DNA from: an uncultured Methanobrevibacter sp.
Lineage (GTDB): Archaea; Methanobacteriota; Methanobacteria; Methanobacteriales; Methanobacteriaceae
Direction: 5' to 3'
Assembly: GCF_905235195.1 (NCBI RefSeq)
Contig: NZ_CAJOKH010000040.1
Location: 1 to 33,628, forward strand
DNA length: 33,628 bases
Position numbers and translations under genes: made by a program. Under the pieces are notes generated by a model that was given only the letters and a program-made list of their open reading frames with translations, had not been told where the DNA came from and made no database searches. Below are positions 2,053-14,298 of this stretch, piece after piece. Each line of letters starts with the position of its first letter. The first letter of the stretch is position 1.

Positions 2053-4611
2053 CTAGAACGGTAAATTATCATATCTAGCATAAATGGTTGCAGTTTTTGT
2101 ATCCCAGTTATTTATTTCACCGAAATTATTTCTAGTTGAAATAGTATCCGCACTATACCATTTACCCTTGATTTTTACCTCTGTCCAAACATGTCCATAC
2201 CATCCATCGGAGAAATGGCAATATCCATGAACATATCTAATTGTTAAACTAACAGCTCTACACATTGCAACATAAAGGTTAGACTGGTCACAACAGTTTC
2301 CAGATCTAAGTTTTAATGTTTTAGCTGCACCTTGTTGGGAATTATAATAATATGAATATTTAATATTATCTCTAACCCAATTAAACATCTTAACTGCTTT
2401 TGCATAATTAGAAGTTAAACCTTTTGTTAGGCTTTTTGCAAGTTTAGTAATTGATGATGTATCAGGTGAACCTGAACTAGTAGTTACAACAACGGATGCT
2501 GGTAATTCACTATGATGACCATAATAGGTTAATATTCTACTAAATGCATCTGTTAAATCACAGAAATTAATTTTACCTACAGCAGTTGATGAGTAATTTG
2601 GTCCCTGTTTATGTTCTAAAATATATTTATAGGTTCTACGAGCTGAATCTACATATCCGTCCATTTTGAGATGTTTCTTCTCAAGTTGATCTCCCATAAA
2701 AGGATCTTCAGGTTCGGATAAAGCTCTTGTCATTACAGGAATATTACTCAAATTATTATTTTTAATGTTTACAATTGCTAAAGATTCATAATATAAGAAA
2801 CGTGTCATTGAAACACTTTTTGTACCAATTTTTACAGAAGTTGGAAGTGCTTTATTTTTAGCATAATATGCTCTAACAGTATTTGCAGCAGTAATAATCT
2901 GTGAAATAGTAAAACTTGTTACAGGTTTAGGAGGTACTACTGCAGGTTTCTTATTTGTTATTGTTATATAATCCGGTAAATTTTTATATGATTTATAATA
3001 TGATAAAACGGCAGCAAATCCTTCAACTAAATTATTGTAGTTTAAACGACCCATATTTGTAGTTGAATAATTAGGACCTTGGCCATTTTGTTTAATCCAT
3101 TTATAAGTCCTCGTAGCAGAATCAACATATTGAGATTTAGACCATTTTTTATTTGAAATCTTGTCACCTGCATTAGGAGAAGATGGTTCTTTAAGAGACC
3201 CAATTTTACTTAGAGCGGATTTTTTACCGTTATGCAAATTGCTAATAGCTAAAGCCTCATAATATAAAAACTGAGCCATAGTACATTTTAAACTACCTAC
3301 TTTTACAGTTTTAGGAAGTTTTTTATTTTTAGCATAATATGTTCTTATAGTATTTGAAGCATTTAAAATCTCTGTTACTGCTACCTTACTAGATGCAGAA
3401 GATGAACCAGTAGTTGATTTCTCTTTGACTCCACTTATGGAACTTACATCAAAAAGATTAGAAAGCGCATATCTAAAGAATACAACACCTTGTGCTCCTC
3501 CATTAATTGCATTTTGAGCATCGGTTTTAAGAGCACTGGCACTTAATTTAGTAGTATCACTATCAGATTTGTAAGATTGTAAAGCTATCCACACTTGTGC
3601 TTTAGCTGAATGCTTAGCATAATACTGAGCTACAGATTTAATCCATGAAGATGAAGCAGCATAATTACCTTTATAAGCCATAGGCACTAAAATATCAAGA
3701 TATTTTCCAAGTTGTGCAGAATTTTGACCATAATAGGTAATAGAATCTCCTTTTTCAGGCATTAAAGCCGCAGAAACAAGGATATTCTTATCAATAGCTT
3801 TTACTTTTTTTACAATTTTTTGTACAAGAGAATTAATTGCACTTACACCATTTGAATATTTACTTGCACGGAGAGATCCACTTCCAGCAAAACGTAAATA
3901 ATCTAAATGAATTCCTGCAACGTTTCTTAATTTTGCATATTTAACTGCCTCATTTATTTTAGAATTGATATATGAGGAAGAAGCAGTAGCAGGATTATGC
4001 CATTGTCCATCATAATATACTTGCATCCAAATATGTACCTGAATACCATATGAATTTGCTTTTTTGATAAAAGATTCAACTTTACTTTTACCATAAGTAT
4101 CATAGGCATAAAAGTTTAAGAAAATATTTCCAATATGATATGATTTAAGTTTAGCCAAATTAACACTATTCATATTTACTCCAAATAAATAAACTCCAAA
4201 AGTATTTTTAGATGACCCTGCAGCCATATTAGTGGAAATAAATTTATTTTGATTAACAATAGTAGGATTGGTTACTTCTAAACTATATGAAGCTTTCAAA
4301 TCATTAATTGGAATTATTTCTCCATTTGTAACTTCATTAAGAGAAGCGTTTTCTACAACTCCTTCATCTATAGAAGTACTGCAAGAAATATCCTCAACCT
4401 TACTAGAGCAAGGATCAGGTAAATCAGAATCAACCACCTCACCCTCAGTTGAGGTAGGAACATTAGCATCTTCTTCAATTGTACTAATCTGATTAGAATC
4501 ATCAACTGAACTTAATGTATCCGTTCCATTGGTAACATCACTTGCTGAAATAGCTGAAATGCTAATTAGAAGTAATATTAATAATAAAGGTAAAATTGTC
4601 CTATTTTTCAA
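2053..4611 (-). CDS. Secreted pseudomurein hydrolase: TIM-barrel glycosidase domain, pseudomurein-binding repeats, C71-like endoisopeptidase
   Basis: An exported 852-residue wall enzyme. Residues 1-23 are a signal peptide (LLPLL-type hydrophobic core ending SAISAS). An acidic low-complexity linker runs to about 135. Residues 137-395 look like a GHL10/DUF187-type TIM barrel: FGVYLFGVN, GIHLDYLRFAG with Asp237, and DILVPMAYKGN. Pseudomurein-binding repeats follow at about 412-460 and 568-618, each followed by a related module ending in QGPNYS (about 490-550 and 645-710). Residues 730-852 form a transglutaminase-like domain with a probable triad Cys773 or 774 (SGNCCDQ), His807 (YGHVW) and Asp822 (SADTIS). 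This is the layout of the PeiW/PeiP phage pseudomurein endoisopeptidases (C71), with an added glycosidase. It could be an autolysin or a weapon against other methanogens. The TTG used here lies 13 bases from the SD GAGG; ATT at 4617-4615, 7 bases from it, may be the true start. Confidence 0.85.
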   Translation of the reverse strand: MKNRTILPLLLILLLISISAISASDVTNGTDTLSSVDDSNQISTIEEDANVPTSTEGEVVDSDLPDPCSSKVEDISCSTSIDEGVVENASLNEVTNGEIIPINDLKASYSLEVTNPTIVNQNKFISTNMAAGSSKNTFGVYLFGVNMNSVNLAKLKSYHIGNIFLNFYAYDTYGKSKVESFIKKANSYGIQVHIWMQVYYDGQWHNPATASSSYINSKINEAVKYAKLRNVAGIHLDYLRFAGSGSLRASKYSNGVSAINSLVQKIVKKVKAIDKNILVSAALMPEKGDSITYYGQNSAQLGKYLDILVPMAYKGNYAASSSWIKSVAQYYAKHSAKAQVWIALQSYKSDSDTTKLSASALKTDAQNAINGGAQGVVFFRYALSNLFDVSSISGVKEKSTTGSSSASSKVAVTEILNASNTIRTYYAKNKKLPKTVKVGSLKCTMAQFLYYEALAISNLHNGKKSALSKIGSLKEPSSPNAGDKISNKKWSKSQYVDSATRTYKWIKQNGQGPNYSTTNMGRLNYNNLVEGFAAVLSYYKSYKNLPDYITITNKKPAVVPPKPVTSFTISQIITAANTVRAYYAKNKALPTSVKIGTKSVSMTRFLYYESLAIVNIKNNNLSNIPVMTRALSEPEDPFMGDQLEKKHLKMDGYVDSARRTYKYILEHKQGPNYSSTAVGKINFCDLTDAFSRILTYYGHHSELPASVVVTTSSGSPDTSSITKLAKSLTKGLTSNYAKAVKMFNWVRDNIKYSYYYNSQQGAAKTLKLRSGNCCDQSNLYVAMCRAVSLTIRYVHGYCHFSDGWYGHVWTEVKIKGKWYSADTISTRNNFGEINNWDTKTATIYARYDNLPF

Positions 4612-4623
4612 TAAAATCTTTTC

Positions 4624-5122
4624 ACCTCACAATACTATTTTAAAAATAGTAAATATAATGTAATTTTAACTAATTTTAAAATTACACATGAAATAAACAC
4701 TATCTTTATTTTCATAATTTTTAAATTCAAAATATTTTATGAAATAATTTTTCAATGAAATATTATAAGTGGAATTTAAAATGATAAATACTATTTTTAA
4801 AATGTAATTAATTGTTATAATTAAGATATATTTAAAATTTTCTACAAAATTTAATAAAAAAATAAATGAGTTTTTTTAGTTTTATGAAAAAATAAGAAAA
4901 AAATTAAAAAAATTAAATTAACACATTATTATCAAAAAAAGTTAAAAAAATAGTTTTAATATATAATTTGTTTATAAAATGCTATACAAACAGCGAAAAT
5001 AAGATTAAAAAAATTTAAACCATTTTAAAATTAAATAATTTAGTATAATTTGTTTACTATTGATTTAGTTTGAAAATTTTAAAATAGAATAAAATAGGCA
5101 ATAAATAAACATTTGCAGGAAA
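4624..5122. other. Intergenic region between the wall hydrolase and the distal end of the CRISPR array
   Basis: About 500 AT-rich bases with no supported gene. It must contain the hydrolase promoter (reading left) and the end of the CRISPR precursor transcript. Read on the minus strand from the last repeat it has several T tracts, including seven T in the stretch around 5010-5020, which could stop pre-crRNA synthesis. Confidence 0.45.
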
Positions 5123-8074
5123 GTCGCAATCCTTGTTTTAGTAGAAAATGGCCTGCAATAGAATTAGAGCAAACGGATTTATATAATCCTGAAGAGTCGC
5201 AATCCTTGTTTTAGTAGAAAGTGGCCTGCAATGGACAAGAGTTAGAATGGTATGGTTTTGAACCTACGTCGCAATCCTTGTTTTAGTAGAAAGTGGCCTG
5301 CAATTTATGAAAGTTTGTTTGAAGGCTTTTGATGGAGATGAGTCGCAATCCTTGTTTTAGTAGAAAGTGGCCTGCAATGTGGATTTAAATTCTATACTCT
5401 CTCTGCAAGAGTGTCGCAATCCTTGTTTTAGTAGAAAGTGGCCTGCAATGGATATGAATGTTATGGAAGATTGTAATTACAAAGAGTCGCAATCCTTGTT
5501 TTAGTAGAAAGTGGCCTGCAATAAAATGGAGATGATGTTATATGAAAAATTTAGAAAAGTCGCAATCCTTGTTTTAGTAGAAAGTGGCCTGCAATTAAGA
5601 AATTTAAATCATTTAAAAAAGGTAGAATTAAGTCGCAATCCTTGTTTTAGTAGAAAGTGGCCTGCAATTTTAAGAGGTTAAAATATGAGATATGAAGTAA
5701 AACGTCGCAATCCTTGTTTTAGTAGAAAGTGGCCTGCAATTTATCCGATTTATATGATAGTAATATATTATCTGAGTCGCAATCCTTGTTTTAGTAGAAA
5801 GTGGCCTGCAATTTTTAAACGATAAAATAACCGATAACAATTATTATTGTCGCAATCCTTGTTTTAGTAGAAAGTGGCCTGCAATCTAAAATAAAAAGGA
5901 AGAAGTGATAAAATGATAGAGTCGCAATCCTTGTTTTAGTAGAAAGTGGCCTGCAATTTATGGAGTTTGTCCAAATGAAACAATTAAAGAGTAGTCGCAA
6001 TCCTTGTTTTAGTAGAAAGTGGCCTGCAATTTTAAAGGATTATACTAATCTTGTTATTATATTAAAGTCGCAATCCTTGTTTTAGTAGAAAGTGGCCTGC
6101 AATTTACGGTAGATAACAATACCTTTCAAATCATAGGTGGTCGCAATCCTTGTTTTAGTAGAAAGTGGCCTGCAATTACTTCTTTTGGATATATGCTTTC
6201 TCTGTTTTTTACGTCGCAATCCTTGTTTTAGTAGAAAGTGGCCTGCAATAAAGAACAACTTGAAGAGTTAAAATCGTTGTGTGTTGGTCGCAATCCTTGT
6301 TTTAGTAGAAAGTGGCCTGCAATAATATAAATATTCTGTATATGTACATCTTGTATATGAGTCGCAATCCTTGTTTTAGTAGAAAGTGGCCTGCAATAGT
6401 GATAAACGAAAATGAACAAGAAGTAGAAATCGAGTCGCAATCCTTGTTTTAGTAGAAAGTGGCCTGCAATCAAAAAAACGATATGGAGGAACGATTATCT
6501 GATATTGTCGCAATCCTTGTTTTAGTAGAAAGTGGCCTGCAATTTAAATATGATTGACGGAGATTGTGAGCTCTCTGTGTCGCAATCCTTGTTTTAGTAG
6601 AAAGTGGCCTGCAATCAGACTGTGGATTAAATTAGATATGCCGAGATTACCGTCGCAATCCTTGTTTTAGTAGAAAGTGGCCTGCAATGCGCTCAAAGCA
6701 CTCAAAAAATTTGCAGTGTCTCAGTCGCAATCCTTGTTTTAGTAGAAAGTGGCCTGCAATTAAATAAAGCTGAAGCTGTTCTAAAAGTAGATGTTGTCGC
6801 AATCCTTGTTTTAGTAGAAAGTGGCCTGCAATTCAGGAGAATATTTGATAACAAACATGCTCCAACCAGTCGCAATCCTTGTTTTAGTAGAAAGTGGCCT
6901 GCAATTAGAAGATTTTTTAAATTTAACTGAGTTTATAGAAGTGTCGCAATCCTTGTTTTAGTAGAAAGTGGCCTGCAATGAAAATAAAAAAGGAGCTGTT
7001 AGAACAGCTCCAAAGTCGCAATCCTTGTTTTAGTAGAAAGTGGCCTGCAATAGTAAAATAAAGGATTATAGAGTCTTAATTCTTAATAAGTCGCAATCCT
7101 TGTTTTAGTAGAAAGTGGCCTGCAATTAAGATTTTAAATGAGAAAGATTTATGTCTTCTTAAGTCGCAATCCTTGTTTTAGTAGAAAGTGGCCTGCAATG
7201 AATTTTCAGTATTTAAGGGGTTAAATACTGATTTGTCGCAATCCTTGTTTTAGTAGAAAGTGGCCTGCAATACGGTTATTACCGTTAGAACAGCCGTTTA
7301 AAAATTCGTCGCAATCCTTGTTTTAGTAGAAAGTGGCCTGCAATAACCAAACATGGAAAGAAAAATAGGTGGAAAATACGTCGCAATCCTTGTTTTAGTA
7401 GAAAGTGGCCTGCAATAAAGAGTTATGTGATGATTATTGCATTGTTTATGATAGTCGCAATCCTTGTTTTAGTAGAAAGTGGCCTGCAATTTCTTATATG
7501 GTTTGTTGTGCTTTGGGTGTTGTTATGTCGCAATCCTTGTTTTAGTAGAAAGTGGCCTGCAATTTAAAGAAGGTAAGAATATTATTGAATTCAATAATTG
7601 TCGCAATCCTTGTTTTAGTAGAAAGTGGCCTGCAATTAAATACTGATTTAGTCTTTATATCTTTTGAAATCGAGTCGCAATCCTTGTTTTAGTAGAAAGT
7701 GGCCTGCAATATTTATAGGATTAATTTAAGAGAAACAAAAATATGTCGCAATCCTTGTTTTAGTAGAAAGTGGCCTGCAATACAAGTATTCGAGAGTGAA
7801 TACGAGTTTAATAAAAGGTCGCAATCCTTGTTTTAGTAGAAAGTGGCCTGCAATTGTACTGAACTTCCTGAGGGTAGTCAGTTAATACCTGTCGCAATCC
7901 TTGTTTTAGTAGAAAGTGGCCTGCAATAATGGAAAATAAAAAGAATTTGAATAAGAAAAAAGAAGTCGCAATCCTTGTTTTAGTAGAAAGTGGCCTGCAA
8001 TTATAGATTGGACTGATACATCAGAGCAGATAGATTTGTCGCAATCCTTGTTTTAGTAGAAAGTGGCCTGCAAT
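5123..8074 (-). CRISPR. CRISPR array, 41 repeats of 37 bp and 40 spacers, transcribed leftwards
   Basis: The repeat, as seen on the plus strand, starts GTCGCAATCC, continues TTGTTTTAGTAGAAAGT and ends GGCCTGCAAT. Hand counting gives 41 copies starting every 71-75 bases from 5123 to 8038, with spacers of 34-38 bases. All copies are identical except the first (5123-5159), which reads GAAAATGG instead of GAAAGTGG. Degenerate repeats mark the leader-distal end, so the leader is on the right. Read on the minus strand the repeat ends AAGGATTGCGAC, resembling the common AAGGATTGAAAC ending, so the crRNA 5' handle would be ATTGCGAC. The repeat has no strong hairpin, which fits cleavage by Cas6. Two spacers (7200-7234 and 7637-7673) overlap in sequence. 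Confidence 0.98.
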
Positions 8075-8577
8075 AGCCCCAATTTTTAACTGAAAAATAG
8101 TAAATAATTGCTAAAAATTGAGGAATTTTTAAGTGTTTTGTGAAGAACACATTTTATAAACACCATTTATAAATATATTCACAATACCATATAAATCTTT
8201 TGAGATAAAAATCAGAACAAAATATATAATAATAATTTAAAAAAAAATAAACCCTAGAAAAATAATAAAACTAAGAAAAAACCCATATTTAATAGAAGTA
8301 TAAACCATTTAAAATATATTAAAAATATTCATAAAATTTAAATAAATTTATCAAACAAACAAAAAATAATCATATCTTCACAAAATACTTAATTTTAAAA
8401 CAAGCAAAAAACTTATTTTTGCTCATAAAAAAAATACGAAAATAATAATTTTAGATTAGAATGACTAATATAAGAGAAAATTCTAAAAATATAAAGAACT
8501 GCCTTAGAAATTTATAAAAAAAATCTCTCTTAAAATATTGGAATTCTGGCAGAAATAAAAAAAAATAGTAAAAATTT
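8075..8577 (-). promoter_or_regulatory. CRISPR leader between cas1 and the array
   Basis: A 503-base AT-rich non-coding stretch joins the cas1 stop to the first repeat. Next to the repeat is an imperfect 12-bp inverted repeat, CCCCAATTTTTA (8077-8088) with TAAAAATTGAGG (8112-8123). On the minus strand two tandem 13-mers, TTTATAAATGGTG and TTTATAAAATGTG (8173-8148), look like doubled TATA boxes. They would place the transcript start roughly 55-75 bases before the first repeat. The position, AT content and perfect leader-side repeats support a leader; the exact promoter is a guess. Confidence 0.7.
8148..8173 (-). repeat. Tandem 13-bp TATA-like repeats in the leader
   Basis: Two adjacent minus-strand 13-mers beginning TTTATAAA agree at 11 of 13 positions. 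Each resembles an archaeal TATA box. They may serve pre-crRNA transcription or mark the leader for spacer integration. Confidence 0.45.
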
Positions 8578-9582
8578 TTACCACCTTAAGGAAAATCCAT
8601 TATATTTTTCCTTCTTAAGAAGAAATTTTGAAATTAATTTTGCTTGATAGAATATAATATCTTCATAACTTATATTTTCATTATTAATTTTTACATTGGA
8701 TTTAAGTTTTTTCATAATCTCTGATATGAGTAATTTTCTTTTATCCTCTGAAATAATAACGATATTGTCTTTAAGTTCAAAATCATCAACCTTAACTTGT
8801 CGTTTAGTTATCATTTTAATTACAACCTTATCAACGATTTGTTGACGGAATTCTTCAATTAAATCAAAGACTAAACTTGCACGACCATAACGATCTCCAT
8901 GTAAATATCCACAATAAATATCTAAACCTGTAATAAATAATGCTTTAATAATTTGAGTTTGAAGTATAGCATAACCATAATTTAACATTGAATTTATAGG
9001 ATCTTTTGCACCTCTACCACTACGAGATTGGAAATTAAATTCATTAGGAATAATAGTTTTAATACCATCCCAATATTCATTAGCAGCAATCCCCTCTAAA
9101 CCCAAAATATTATTTCTAATATCGTCAACAGGCCTATTTCTAATATCATTTAATTGTATGATAATATTTGCAATATTATCTCTTTTTTGTATAAGAAATT
9201 CTGGATTCTCACGAGGCTTTGATAATGTTCCAAGAACTGCCTTTTGATTTTCCATTTTAGCTTTAATAAATGACTTTGCAAGATAACCACTTCGAAAATC
9301 ATTTAATGCTGAGTACTGCTCTTTTTTAACATTAACATGTTTATTTTCAGTTGGCAGCAACTGATATACTACCTCACCTTTCCAATTAAGTACTATAGTA
9401 TCAATATTACGTGCTGCAAGTAAACTCATAGCATCAAATGTTATTGAACCCTTACCTGTAATAATTAACTGTTCAATATCATCAATAACATAATAATTTG
9501 TAATTTTATCATTTTCTTTAATTAAAATTTGATTATCACGTCTTGCAACTGATTTTCCAAAACCTTCCACAAATAATTTCAT
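8578..9582 (-). CDS. cas1: CRISPR-associated integrase Cas1
   Basis: Cas1 joins with Cas2 to insert new spacers at the leader end of the array. The 334 residues are normal length. Metal-binding residues can be placed: Glu163 in GLEGIAANEYW, His228 in GYLHGDRYGR and Glu243 in LVFDLIEEFR. The N-terminal strand domain (KLFVEGFGKSVAR...ITGKGSITFDAMSLLAARNI) is typical. The ATG at 9582 is chosen because GGGG ends 6 bases before it; the TTG four codons upstream overlaps that SD. It is the last gene of the operon before the leader, 39 bases after cas2. No reverse transcriptase is fused to it. Confidence 0.97.
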   Translation of the reverse strand: MKLFVEGFGKSVARRDNQILIKENDKITNYYVIDDIEQLIITGKGSITFDAMSLLAARNIDTIVLNWKGEVVYQLLPTENKHVNVKKEQYSALNDFRSGYLAKSFIKAKMENQKAVLGTLSKPRENPEFLIQKRDNIANIIIQLNDIRNRPVDDIRNNILGLEGIAANEYWDGIKTIIPNEFNFQSRSGRGAKDPINSMLNYGYAILQTQIIKALFITGLDIYCGYLHGDRYGRASLVFDLIEEFRQQIVDKVVIKMITKRQVKVDDFELKDNIVIISEDKRKLLISEIMKKLKSNVKINNENISYEDIIFYQAKLISKFLLKKEKYNGFSLRW

Positions 9583-9621
9583 AATAATCCCCAATAATTT
9601 ATATAAATAAAAATTATTAAA

Positions 9622-9900
9622 TCATACAAAATCAAAGTCTTTTATTTGAGGAATTTCAGTAAATCCCTCTATAAAAATAGATTCTTCACAATTTTTACAT
9701 ATGGGGATTAAAACAATATTGTCATTATCTGAGGAGATATACAAGTCCAATTTATCTGCCAAATCTAGTCTTCTTTTAAGATCAAGATAACCCGCAAAAA
9801 CAGATTTTTGAACTCTATATAAACCATAATGTTGTAACAATTTAATTAGATGATTTCTACTTATATCTTCAGATATATCATAAAATACAAAAACTAATAT
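9622..9900 (-). CDS. cas2: CRISPR-associated Cas2, apparent ATA start codon
   Basis: Partner of Cas1 in spacer acquisition. The frame reads LVFVFYDISEDISRN, then LIKLLQHYGLYRVQKSVFAG, a complete Cas2 ferredoxin-like fold with the conserved Asp at residue 8, ending in PQIKDFDFV (92 residues). The first ATG, at 9840, lies inside helix 1 and would remove strand 1 and the key Asp, so it cannot be the true start. The frame opens at a TAG (9915-9913) and contains no ATG, GTG or TTG before the Asp. AGGGGG (9914-9909) is followed, after exactly 8 bases, by ATA at 9900-9898. This is either a non-standard AUA start or a mutated ATG. Confidence 0.85.
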   Translation of the reverse strand: MLVFVFYDISEDISRNHLIKLLQHYGLYRVQKSVFAGYLDLKRRLDLADKLDLYISSDNDNIVLIPICKNCEESIFIEGFTEIPQIKDFDFV

Positions 9901-12207: not shown

Positions 12208-13355
12208 TTATTTTGGCTCTGCAAAAGACAACTGAACCCATCCAAGTGGTAAATCTGTTGATGTAATTTTTCGAGATTTAGGGAATTCATATTCATATGA
12301 CCTTCTAAAGCTTTGACGGATTTCTTCAAATCTTTGAATATCTTCATTTTTAATTTTTAAAGCAATGGAAGTGGCTAATAACCCTGAACCAGAGCCTAAT
12401 TTAATTAAAGGTTTATCTAACTTATTCCATTTTGACAATTTTTCATATGTCTTTTTAATACTAGGTCTGTCATATTCTTCATAAAATTCTATCTCATGGT
12501 CTATTATATCATTGGAAAAATTATAAATAGACTCTTTAATGTTTTTTAAACTGATTAAGTATTTTTTATCTTCAATACCAATTCTATTTAAAACATCATC
12601 ATTAACAGTATTGTTTAAACTAAATTTAAGAGATGTTTTTCTACCTATTGTTTCAACATAAGTTTTAATTACTCTTCCATTGCGACCATGATCTTCAAAA
12701 GTACCTGTAGGTTTAGCTTTAATGGTTTTTAAATCATAAACATGAGGAAATTTAGCAACAGTAGAATCAGATATTTGTAAAAATCTCATAATACTATTTT
12801 GTGCAGAATTACCTTTAGGTGCTGAAAATATTTTATTAATAAAATTATCACATGCCCCTCTTTTAATTCTATATTTACCACTGCGTTTTTGAACAATATC
12901 CTCTGGAATATCATCAGCATTTATTAAATTATATAATAAACTTGTTCTAATAGCACCTTTAAGAGATGAACCTGGAATAAAAAATTTATCATTAGTTTTA
13001 ATACCCTCTGCAATTTCACTTGGAATATTCTTATATCCTTTTTTATCAGTAAGTTGGAATTTACATACGGCATTGTATCTTCGATATTATTTTTAACCTT
13101 AGAATCATATTGTTCTAATTTAAAATTCTGATTAGATAAATTTTCTATAAATTTGTCTTTTTTATCATCTGTTAAATCTTTATAATATTCAATTACATCG
13201 ATTCTTTTGATAATATTAATATCTTCACCTTTAAGTTTTGCTTTTCCTGTGACAAATTCATTTGAAAAATATTTTCTACCATTTCCAATAAATACTGGAG
13301 TAATTGTCTTCATAGTACAGCTAAAATTACCAAAAAGTTTACCTGAAGATACCAT
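12208..13355 (-). CDS. csm5: Csm5, type III-A effector subunit, split by a -1 frameshift
   Basis: Csm5 caps the crRNA 3' end in the Csm complex. The first 106 codons (MVSSGKLFGNF..., ATG at 13355 with GGGAGG 8 bases upstream, inside the end of csm4) are in one frame. The rest is in the -1 frame: GYKNIPSEIAEG, FFIPGSSLKGAIRTSLLYN (the RAMP glycine loop), then MRFLQISDS. Without a shift, translation ends at 12924 after 143 residues. With it, the product is 382 residues, a normal Csm5 length. The frames meet at 13044-13038, codons ATA AAA AAG, an in-frame A-AAA-AAG slippery heptamer. Programmed or chance slippage, a real one-base deletion in the A6 run, or a sequencing error are all possible. 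No strong stimulatory hairpin or internal SD is evident. Confidence 0.85.
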
Positions 13356-13356
13356 A

Positions 13357-14298
13357 TTAATTACCTCCCAAATCAATAGCCGTTTTTACAGGAAATGCTA
13401 TACCATATTCTACTGCAGGATTAATATCTCCTACTTCAACTATTGTTCCATAACTATCACTATAGTTTTTAAAGATTGAACCTTCTTTAAAGAATCTTAC
13501 CTGTTTTCTTATCTCACCAGAAGCACTTCTACCTCTTTTAGAATCAATTTCATATATTGAATATCCATCAATATTTTCTAAATCATATTCAGAGGGAATA
13601 AATCTTGAAAGATTTATGAAGTATTTAGAGTCTGTAACATCCTTTATTGATTCATCATATATTTCATATTCAAATTGACCTTTACCTGTTGATATATCTT
13701 TTCCAAATCCACGGTCTTTTAAGAATTTTAATGCGCTTTTAATAATTGGAATATAGTTCTTATCGTTAAATTCAATATAGAAAAATAAACCCATATTCAA
13801 ATATCTTTGACCTTCGGAGTAAAAAATGCCCTCTGTAGTATTAAATAATCTATTTACACTATTGTTAGGAATAATATCCTCAGTTAATCTGAAATTCTCA
13901 TAGGATTTATTCATAAGAAAACTACCTGAGGAAGAATAATCTGAGTAATTATTTAAAATATCAGATTCATTTAACTGACCATTAATAATATTATAGAAAA
14001 TTTCTTCTTCAACAAATTTAACCTTTTTATATTTTTTTAAATCATCAAAAACAGAATTATTCAAATCTAATTTTTGATTTAAATTGATTTTAGGGAAGAA
14101 TTTAACTTTTTCATCATTTTCATCATAGATAAACGGGAAAGGAGATGATAAGTAAAATGGTACATTATTTTTAAACTCTTCCAAGATAGCATCTGTTTTA
14201 TCCGGATAAAGTTGATTAATGGCAAATGTTAAAGCACCAAACAAAGTATCTGAATGTAATTCTGGAAAGATAGATAAAGGTTTTATATAAACCAACAT
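13357..14298 (-). CDS. csm4: Csm4, type III-A effector subunit
   Basis: A RAMP protein that holds the crRNA 5' handle and contacts Cas10. The N-terminus MLVYIKPLSIFPELHSDTLF is diagnostic of Csm4 (LYIKPLS...LHSDT). The glycine-rich loop FGKDISTGKGQFEYEI is at about 198-213. 313 residues is normal. The ATG follows AAGGAGA by 8 bases, overlapping the end of csm3. The last codons contain the csm5 SD, so the two genes are probably translationally coupled. Confidence 0.93.
   Translation of the reverse strand: MLVYIKPLSIFPELHSDTLFGALTFAINQLYPDKTDAILEEFKNNVPFYLSSPFPFIYDENDEKVKFFPKINLNQKLDLNNSVFDDLKKYKKVKFVEEEIFYNIINGQLNESDILNNYSDYSSSGSFLMNKSYENFRLTEDIIPNNSVNRLFNTTEGIFYSEGQRYLNMGLFFYIEFNDKNYIPIIKSALKFLKDRGFGKDISTGKGQFEYEIYDESIKDVTDSKYFINLSRFIPSEYDLENIDGYSIYEIDSKRGRSASGEIRKQVRFFKEGSIFKNYSDSYGTIVEVGDINPAVEYGIAFPVKTAIDLGGN

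Follow-up and report, generated by a model that had tools for sequence, protein, structure and literature searches.

Results

A multidomain wall protein encoded beside a CRISPR-Cas locus

The window, by which we mean the whole 33,628-nt stretch of DNA analysed here, comes from an uncultured Methanobrevibacter sp. and encodes on its minus strand (2053-4611) a protein of 852 amino acids with a signal peptide, a linker, a TIM barrel, two blocks of pseudomurein-binding repeats (PMBRs) and a transglutaminase-like (TG) domain. The first-pass annotation, made by reading the sequence, had recognized a real open reading frame and let it run to 4617, where there is an in-frame ATT, a non-standard start codon; we place the start at the TTG whose first base is 4611; a ribosome-binding-site-like GAGGTGA (4622-4628, minus strand) is read 10 nt upstream of it. 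All coordinates of the protein's parts refer to the same strand. Residues 1-24 (4540-4611) look by eye like the signal peptide that had been noted there, with a charged N end, a hydrophobic core and an AxA-like end. They are followed by the linker (residues 25-136; 4204-4539), the barrel (residues 137-395; 3427-4203), PMBR block 1 (residues 409-566; 2914-3387), PMBR block 2 (residues 567-708; 2488-2913) and the TG domain (residues 712-852; 2056-2478). The annotation spoke of two PMBRs; repeats are indeed present, but Pfam resolves them into six significant PF09373 stretches (E 1.4e-24, 85.4 bits, cut-off 24.9), grouped into two blocks of ~140-160 aa each, which places the protein among the pseudomurein-binding proteins of this family. 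NCBIfam holds no model for any of the proteins described here.

Compared with the nearest relative, locus L047 of another genome, dN/dS was 0.26 for the barrel and 0.17 for the TG domain, values that indicate purifying selection on both, and 0.80 for the linker, which appears to be under low constraint. As the L047 barrel is 83% identical to that of the window and dN/dS is low in both domains, the gene is not a chance reading frame.

The gene is chromosomal and is flanked by a uracil-DNA glycosylase gene and a CRISPR array. No viral genes were found near it, and no operon or neighbourhood link was found in the window. The array (5122-8170) consists of 41 repeats of 37 nt (GTCGCAATCCTTGTTTTAGTAGAAAGTGGCCTGCAAT) and 40 spacers. 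Beside it lies a type III-A set, all on the minus strand, with Cas1 (8578-9594), a Cas2-like protein (9622-9840), Cas6b, Csm6, Csm4, Csm3, Csm2 and Cas10, reaching 18030. Two open reading frames of the Csm operon, 12208-12789 and 12924-13376 (both minus strand), have no Pfam match; the former sits between Csm6 and the Csm4 region, at the expected position of csm5. Comparison of the spacers with the viral loci that we fetched gave no match, only one 16-base chance similarity.

A divergent DUF4015/GH18-like barrel with a conserved Asp/Glu pair

The fold of residues 137-395 was predicted by AlphaFold2 from an alignment of 47 related sequences. The model (mean pLDDT 96.7, pTM 0.93) is a (beta/alpha)8 barrel of the glycosidase TIM type, with eight strands alternating with helices. 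Its best PDB match in Foldseek is Cwp19 of Clostridioides difficile (E 4.2e-10, TM 0.74-0.76 by query), followed by PgaB/BpsB, GH53 and GH18 enzymes, while the closest solved chains by sequence profile are 4s1a and GH18 enzymes. The likeness to GHL10 that had been proposed therefore holds for the fold only, since the window protein has no match to the GHL10 profile (PF02638) and its DUF4015 (PF13200) score of 22.5 bits is below the cut-off of 27. Relatives do exceed the Pfam cut-offs. A paralogue in the same genome, on contig C45, scores 29.5 bits with DUF4015 and other relatives reach up to 60.1 bits (L162); L134 is above the cut-offs of GH18 (44 bits), DUF4015 (37 bits) and GHL10 (31.4 bits, cut-off 27.9), and L140 is also above that of GH18. 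By these profile scores the window barrel is a divergent DUF4015/GH18-like domain that belongs to DUF4015 at the family level only. In five loci of one family of the class (f3; L135-L139) the barrel has an insert of ~95 aa between its third and fourth strands, with a very high content of Tyr, Lys and Arg; similar inserts are seen in L150-L154, L165, L166 and L168.

To the barrel the annotation had ascribed two motifs, GIHLDYLR and PMAYKGN, and it had called for a predicted fold with acidic residues in the active site. Both motifs are present and hold key residues, Asp237 and Tyr313, respectively. Among 87 diverse barrel copies from four families, Asp237 (codon 3901-3903) is present in all and Glu286 (codon 3754-3756) in 85; Tyr238, Arg240, Gln296, Asp306, Tyr313, Trp323 and Tyr347 are each found in at least 86. 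The two copies without Glu286 (L156 and L172) also deviate at other conserved positions, and may therefore be degenerate. As Asp237 lies at the end of strand 4 and Glu286 directly after strand 5 of the model, both should sit at the mouth of the barrel, and we propose this near-invariant pair as the catalytic one, the role of Glu286 being drawn from its conservation. GH18-type catalysis was ruled out: the position of the catalytic Glu in the GH18 motif DxxDxDxE is taken in the alignment by the invariant Arg240, so that the mechanism cannot be transferred from GH18.

The TG domain is homologous to pseudomurein endoisopeptidases

The C-terminal domain has a Cys-His-Asp triad (Cys773, codon 2293-2295; His807, 2191-2193; Asp822, 2146-2148) that is invariant in 32 of 32 sequences. 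Its AlphaFold2 model (pLDDT 92, pTM 0.88) is nearest in fold to 3isr, PeiP (TM 0.72) and PeiW (TM 0.71), and the same three are retrieved by a profile search with the domain. In Pfam it scores 87.5 bits with Transglut_core (8.8e-25) and 25.3 bits with Peptidase_C71, above the cut-off of 22, while the corresponding C71 score of L135 (20.9) falls just under it. We are sure that the domain is homologous to the Pei enzymes. Of the phage-type endoisopeptidase that the annotation had seen here, the kinship with PeiW and PeiP is retained; the phage-type label is not, as the domain fits Transglut_core better than C71 and the gene, rather than encoding a viral lysin without export signal, is chromosomal, specifies a signal peptide and has uracil-DNA glycosylase and CRISPR-Cas genes, not viral ones, as neighbours.

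PeiW and PeiP cleave the Ala-epsilon-Lys bond (PMC4592898). For formation of the Glu-Lys bond of pseudomurein, the best candidate in the literature is a set of exported methanogen transglutaminase genes (OG0000044; PMC11915815), and Leahy et al. likewise proposed cross-linking of pseudomurein by transglutaminases (PMC2812497). The TG domain may do either, cleave as Pei enzymes do or form cross-links. We lean towards cleavage, because the domain follows PMBRs as in PeiW and PeiP and because viruses pair the same barrel with a peptidase. TG domains were found at 1-7 copies per genome in 15 of 15 genomes tested, including genomes without the barrel.

The barrel is found in nearly all genomes of the class

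The annotation had suggested a search for this architecture in Methanobacteriales. Our search of the order found the barrel in 133 of 151 genomes. An alignment-based search found it in 134 of 152 genomes, in 20 of 20 genera and in 86 of 91 good-quality genomes of the whole phylum set, which consists of a single pseudomurein-bearing class. The best 80 named relatives in the genome collection were all from Methanobrevibacter or Methanobacteriaceae. The genomes without the barrel include five that are each 99% complete: G020, G022 and G036 of genus g8, and G143 and G145 of family f3. G022 is identified as M. ruminantium M1 by an exact match to the start of peiR; it has six TG and seven PMBR matches. 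Since complete genomes, that of M. ruminantium M1 among them, lack the barrel, it is not universally essential. For M. ruminantium M1 a wall backbone with GalNAc in place of GlcNAc has been reported (PMC2812497), and the strain is reported to be resistant to PeiW and PeiP (PMC2812497, PMC4592898). Together with this backbone, the absence of the barrel from M1 is a possible hint of substrate specificity. That presence of the barrel tracks a GlcNAc rather than a GalNAc backbone is only an idea, as the barrel is missing from G143 and G145 too and a single genome is no proof.

In our census, Methanobrevibacter barrels occur in three architectures: Big repeats followed by the barrel; Big repeats, barrel, PMBR and TG; and, as in the window, barrel, two PMBR blocks and TG. 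The order barrel-PMBR-TG is found in dozens of Methanobrevibacter loci, and about half of the copies in this genus are of the Big-barrel type without PMBR or TG, so that these may act on a substrate other than pseudomurein. A signal peptide, barrel, PMBR and TG are also combined in family f4 (L140, from a 1.2-Mb genome) and in f3 (L135). In f2 four PMBRs are joined to the barrel (L129, L131), and genome G150 has a barrel with nine PMBRs (L133, cut at the locus end) in a 1128-aa frame that also has a TG match. As barrel-PMBR-TG recurs in three families, the fusion is old in the class.

The host genome itself (G000) contains the barrel in three genes and the TG domain four times, the paralogues having been read as loci. 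On contig C45 (8.3-14.0 kb) a Big-barrel-PMBR-TG gene is followed by a Big-PMBR-TG gene, and on contig C50 (16.2-19.3 kb) a Big-barrel gene adjoins a Big-TG gene. Tandem pairs of Big-barrel genes (~600 and ~500 aa) are seen in Methanobrevibacter at L016, L017, L023, L028, L030 and other loci, which suggests that wall-linked barrels lacking PMBR have undergone an expansion specific to this lineage.

Viruses carry the barrel in lysin-like proteins

Eight virus contigs in IMG/VR encode a highly similar barrel (L038-L045), and a ninth match (L046) is weak. A second viral scan with an alignment of the viral barrels gave no further contigs, and tblastn of the barrel against 50,697 phage records gave no match. 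This absence concerns the barrel, as the C39-like domain of L038 did match one of these viruses (vir080). It had been claimed that Pei lysins have no barrel; this is true of PeiW and PeiP, but barrel-containing lysin-like proteins do exist in virus contigs. In two contigs, L044 and L045, the gene adjoins those of terminase, portal and head-maturation protease, and in the products (362 and 333 aa) PMBRs and the barrel are the only recognized domains. L044 and PeiW share 48% identity over their PMBR parts, and the C71 domain is absent from L044; in both viral proteins the match to the PHROG 'pseudomurein endoisopeptidase' is confined to the PMBR part. By domain content, then, the barrel occupies the place of the peptidase in a Pei-type lysin. 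Because the L044 gene lies between the portal and protease genes, its product could be carried in the virion for entry instead of serving lysis.

In L038-L041 the barrel stands at the very start, followed by PMBR (weak in L041) and a C39-like domain assigned by eye (YCGP ... GHYE); no obvious signal peptide was seen in the four, and the next gene in L038 and L040 encodes an integrase. A lysin with PMBR and C39 is known, namely PeiR (PMC6189367), and L038-L041 read as PeiR-type proteins plus the barrel. The best PDB match of the C39-like domain of L038 (10845-11429) is 22oc_A, named only 'P210 WT' (E 2.5e-22). L042 and L043 combine Big-like domains with the barrel; the segment 11050-11467 of L042 (NCFD ... 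YDHIRI ... RDP) is TG-like by eye and has no Pfam match. In the tree the viral barrels fall at three separate, mostly well supported places, L044 and L045 beside f4, L038, L041, L042 and L043 within Methanobrevibacter, and L040 elsewhere, so that about three captures by viruses would be needed. Of all the evidence, the viral relatives give the strongest hint as to function. Repeated uptake of the barrel into signal-less viral PMBR proteins is hard to explain unless it aids in opening the wall, which argues for a wall-cutting barrel and makes this family a candidate pseudomurein glycosidase.

Discussion

We propose, with a probability of about 0.6, that the window protein is an exported, wall-anchored enzyme of pseudomurein remodelling, in which a glycan-hydrolysing barrel is combined with a TG domain acting on the peptide cross-link. 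The signal peptide would take the protein through the membrane. PMBRs bind pseudomurein, and the six repeats would hold the protein on it. The barrel would then hydrolyse the backbone of N-acetylglucosamine and N-acetyltalosaminuronic acid, with Asp237 and Glu286 at its mouth as the most likely catalytic residues, and the peptide cross-link would be the target of the TG domain, which more probably cleaves it, like PeiW and PeiP. Being chromosomal and kept by nearly the whole class, such an enzyme would probably serve wall growth, turnover or separation of daughter cells, and the same barrel has been taken up by viruses into their lysins. What the analysis establishes are the domains, the fold, the conserved residues, the distribution and the viral exchange of domains; catalysis, the bond that is cut and the biological role are deduced from these.

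The likeliest alternative concerns the TG domain: the barrel would cut the glycan while the TG domain, as a transpeptidase, formed the Glu-Lys cross-link, giving a bifunctional enzyme of wall growth and not a double cutter. The published proposals for exported methanogen transglutaminases (PMC11915815, PMC2812497) speak for such an activity, as do the 1-7 TG copies in every genome tested, even where the barrel is missing, and the fact that by profile and fold a generic Transglut_core protein, 3isr, comes before PeiP and PeiW. Yet the sole characterized PMBR-linked relatives, PeiW and PeiP, cleave (PMC2989375, PMC4592898) and have the same order of PMBR and Cys-His-Asp domain; moreover, the viral barrel is paired with a C39-like peptidase, and a cross-linker would be useless to a lysin. 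We hold this alternative to be the less likely one. It seems improbable that the barrel is an adhesin accessory, either inactive or only binding carbohydrate, that fastens onto glycans of the host or of bacteria. Across 87 diverse copies the Asp, Glu, Gln and Tyr residues at its mouth hardly vary, which is unexpected for a mere binder, and adhesin parts are missing from the viral PMBR-barrel proteins. In favour of this reading, many Methanobrevibacter barrels lie C-terminal to Big repeats in adhesin-like proteins without PMBR or TG, and a survey of adhesin-like proteins lists a 'putative glycosyl hydrolase domain' once for M. smithii (PMC11532034).

The first-pass annotation had also considered a lysin against competitors. 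A secreted weapon against other methanogens or bacterial murein would be in keeping with Cwp19, the closest solved structure, which cuts bacterial murein (PMC6016235), and with the bacteria-killing murein hydrolases known in some archaea (PMC12356512). The PMBRs, however, are directed at pseudomurein, the polymer of the producer's own wall, and the gene is chromosomal, nearly universal in the class and has no adjoining immunity gene in the window, which leaves this the least probable of the roles considered.

Under the preferred reading, that of a wall-remodelling enzyme, the comparative evidence makes the conserved barrel a strong candidate for the pseudomurein glycan-cleaving enzyme that has so far been missing. 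The pseudomurein-cutting enzymes characterized so far in the papers found are peptidases, PeiW, PeiP and PeiR, and for methanogen viruses a survey of lytic proteins published in 2025 mentions Pei alone (PMC12596118). The literature searched contains no prior report of a pseudomurein glycosidase, and as many subscription papers lay outside it, priority is uncertain. We give somewhat better than even odds to the broader proposal that with this barrel a family of pseudomurein glycan hydrolases becomes known for the first time. It would be an autolysin present across the class and fused to a peptide enzyme, which tailed viruses have captured at least three times, either to replace the known pseudomurein peptidases or to supplement them. 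If true, a glycan hydrolase would explain how pseudomurein-bearing cells open their own wall for growth and division, would be of use for protoplasts, DNA extraction and the chemistry of wall structure, and would offer a second target bond for the lysins studied against ruminant methane. As the family is widespread, small and foldable, the question is directly testable.

Several known systems resemble the window protein in part. PeiW and PeiP, the C71 enzymes of the Methanothermobacter viruses psiM100 and psiM2, likewise carry a C-terminal Cys-His-Asp domain after their PMBRs, but they are short, signal-less and virus-encoded, whereas the window protein is exported and chromosomal, has an added TIM barrel and scores far higher with Transglut_core than with C71. 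PeiR, of the M. ruminantium provirus phi-mru, combines PMBR with C39 as the viral proteins L038-L041 combine PMBR with a C39-like cysteine peptidase; it has no barrel, and the window protein has TG in place of C39. Cwp19 (GHL10, PF02638) shares with the window protein a signal peptide, a TIM barrel and wall-binding repeats, although both the wall polymer and the repeats differ; it is a lytic transglycosylase whose cleavage of murein glycan has been shown (PMC6016235). Comparison with all its structural neighbours points to Asp196 as an active-site residue, with no clear second acidic residue (PMC5765458), whereas the window barrel family has Glu286. With 4s1a and DUF4015, the best Pfam barrel family for most relatives, the barrel shares FDY.RFP-type and PM.Y motifs; no established substrate of DUF4015 was found in the literature, the sole paper found mentioning it in fusion with a wall-linked YkyA domain (PMC12700454). 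GH18 chitinases and the YaaH-SleL cortex enzymes have in common with it the TIM barrel and the PM.Y motif of strand 6, but carry the catalytic Glu where the window barrel has Arg240. Atl-type autolysins of bacteria join an amidase and a glucosaminidase in one exported protein with wall-binding repeats. Their domains are unrelated to those described here and their wall polymer is different, but in them, as would be the case for the window protein, enzymes for the glycan and the peptide side of the wall are united in a single exported wall-binding protein.
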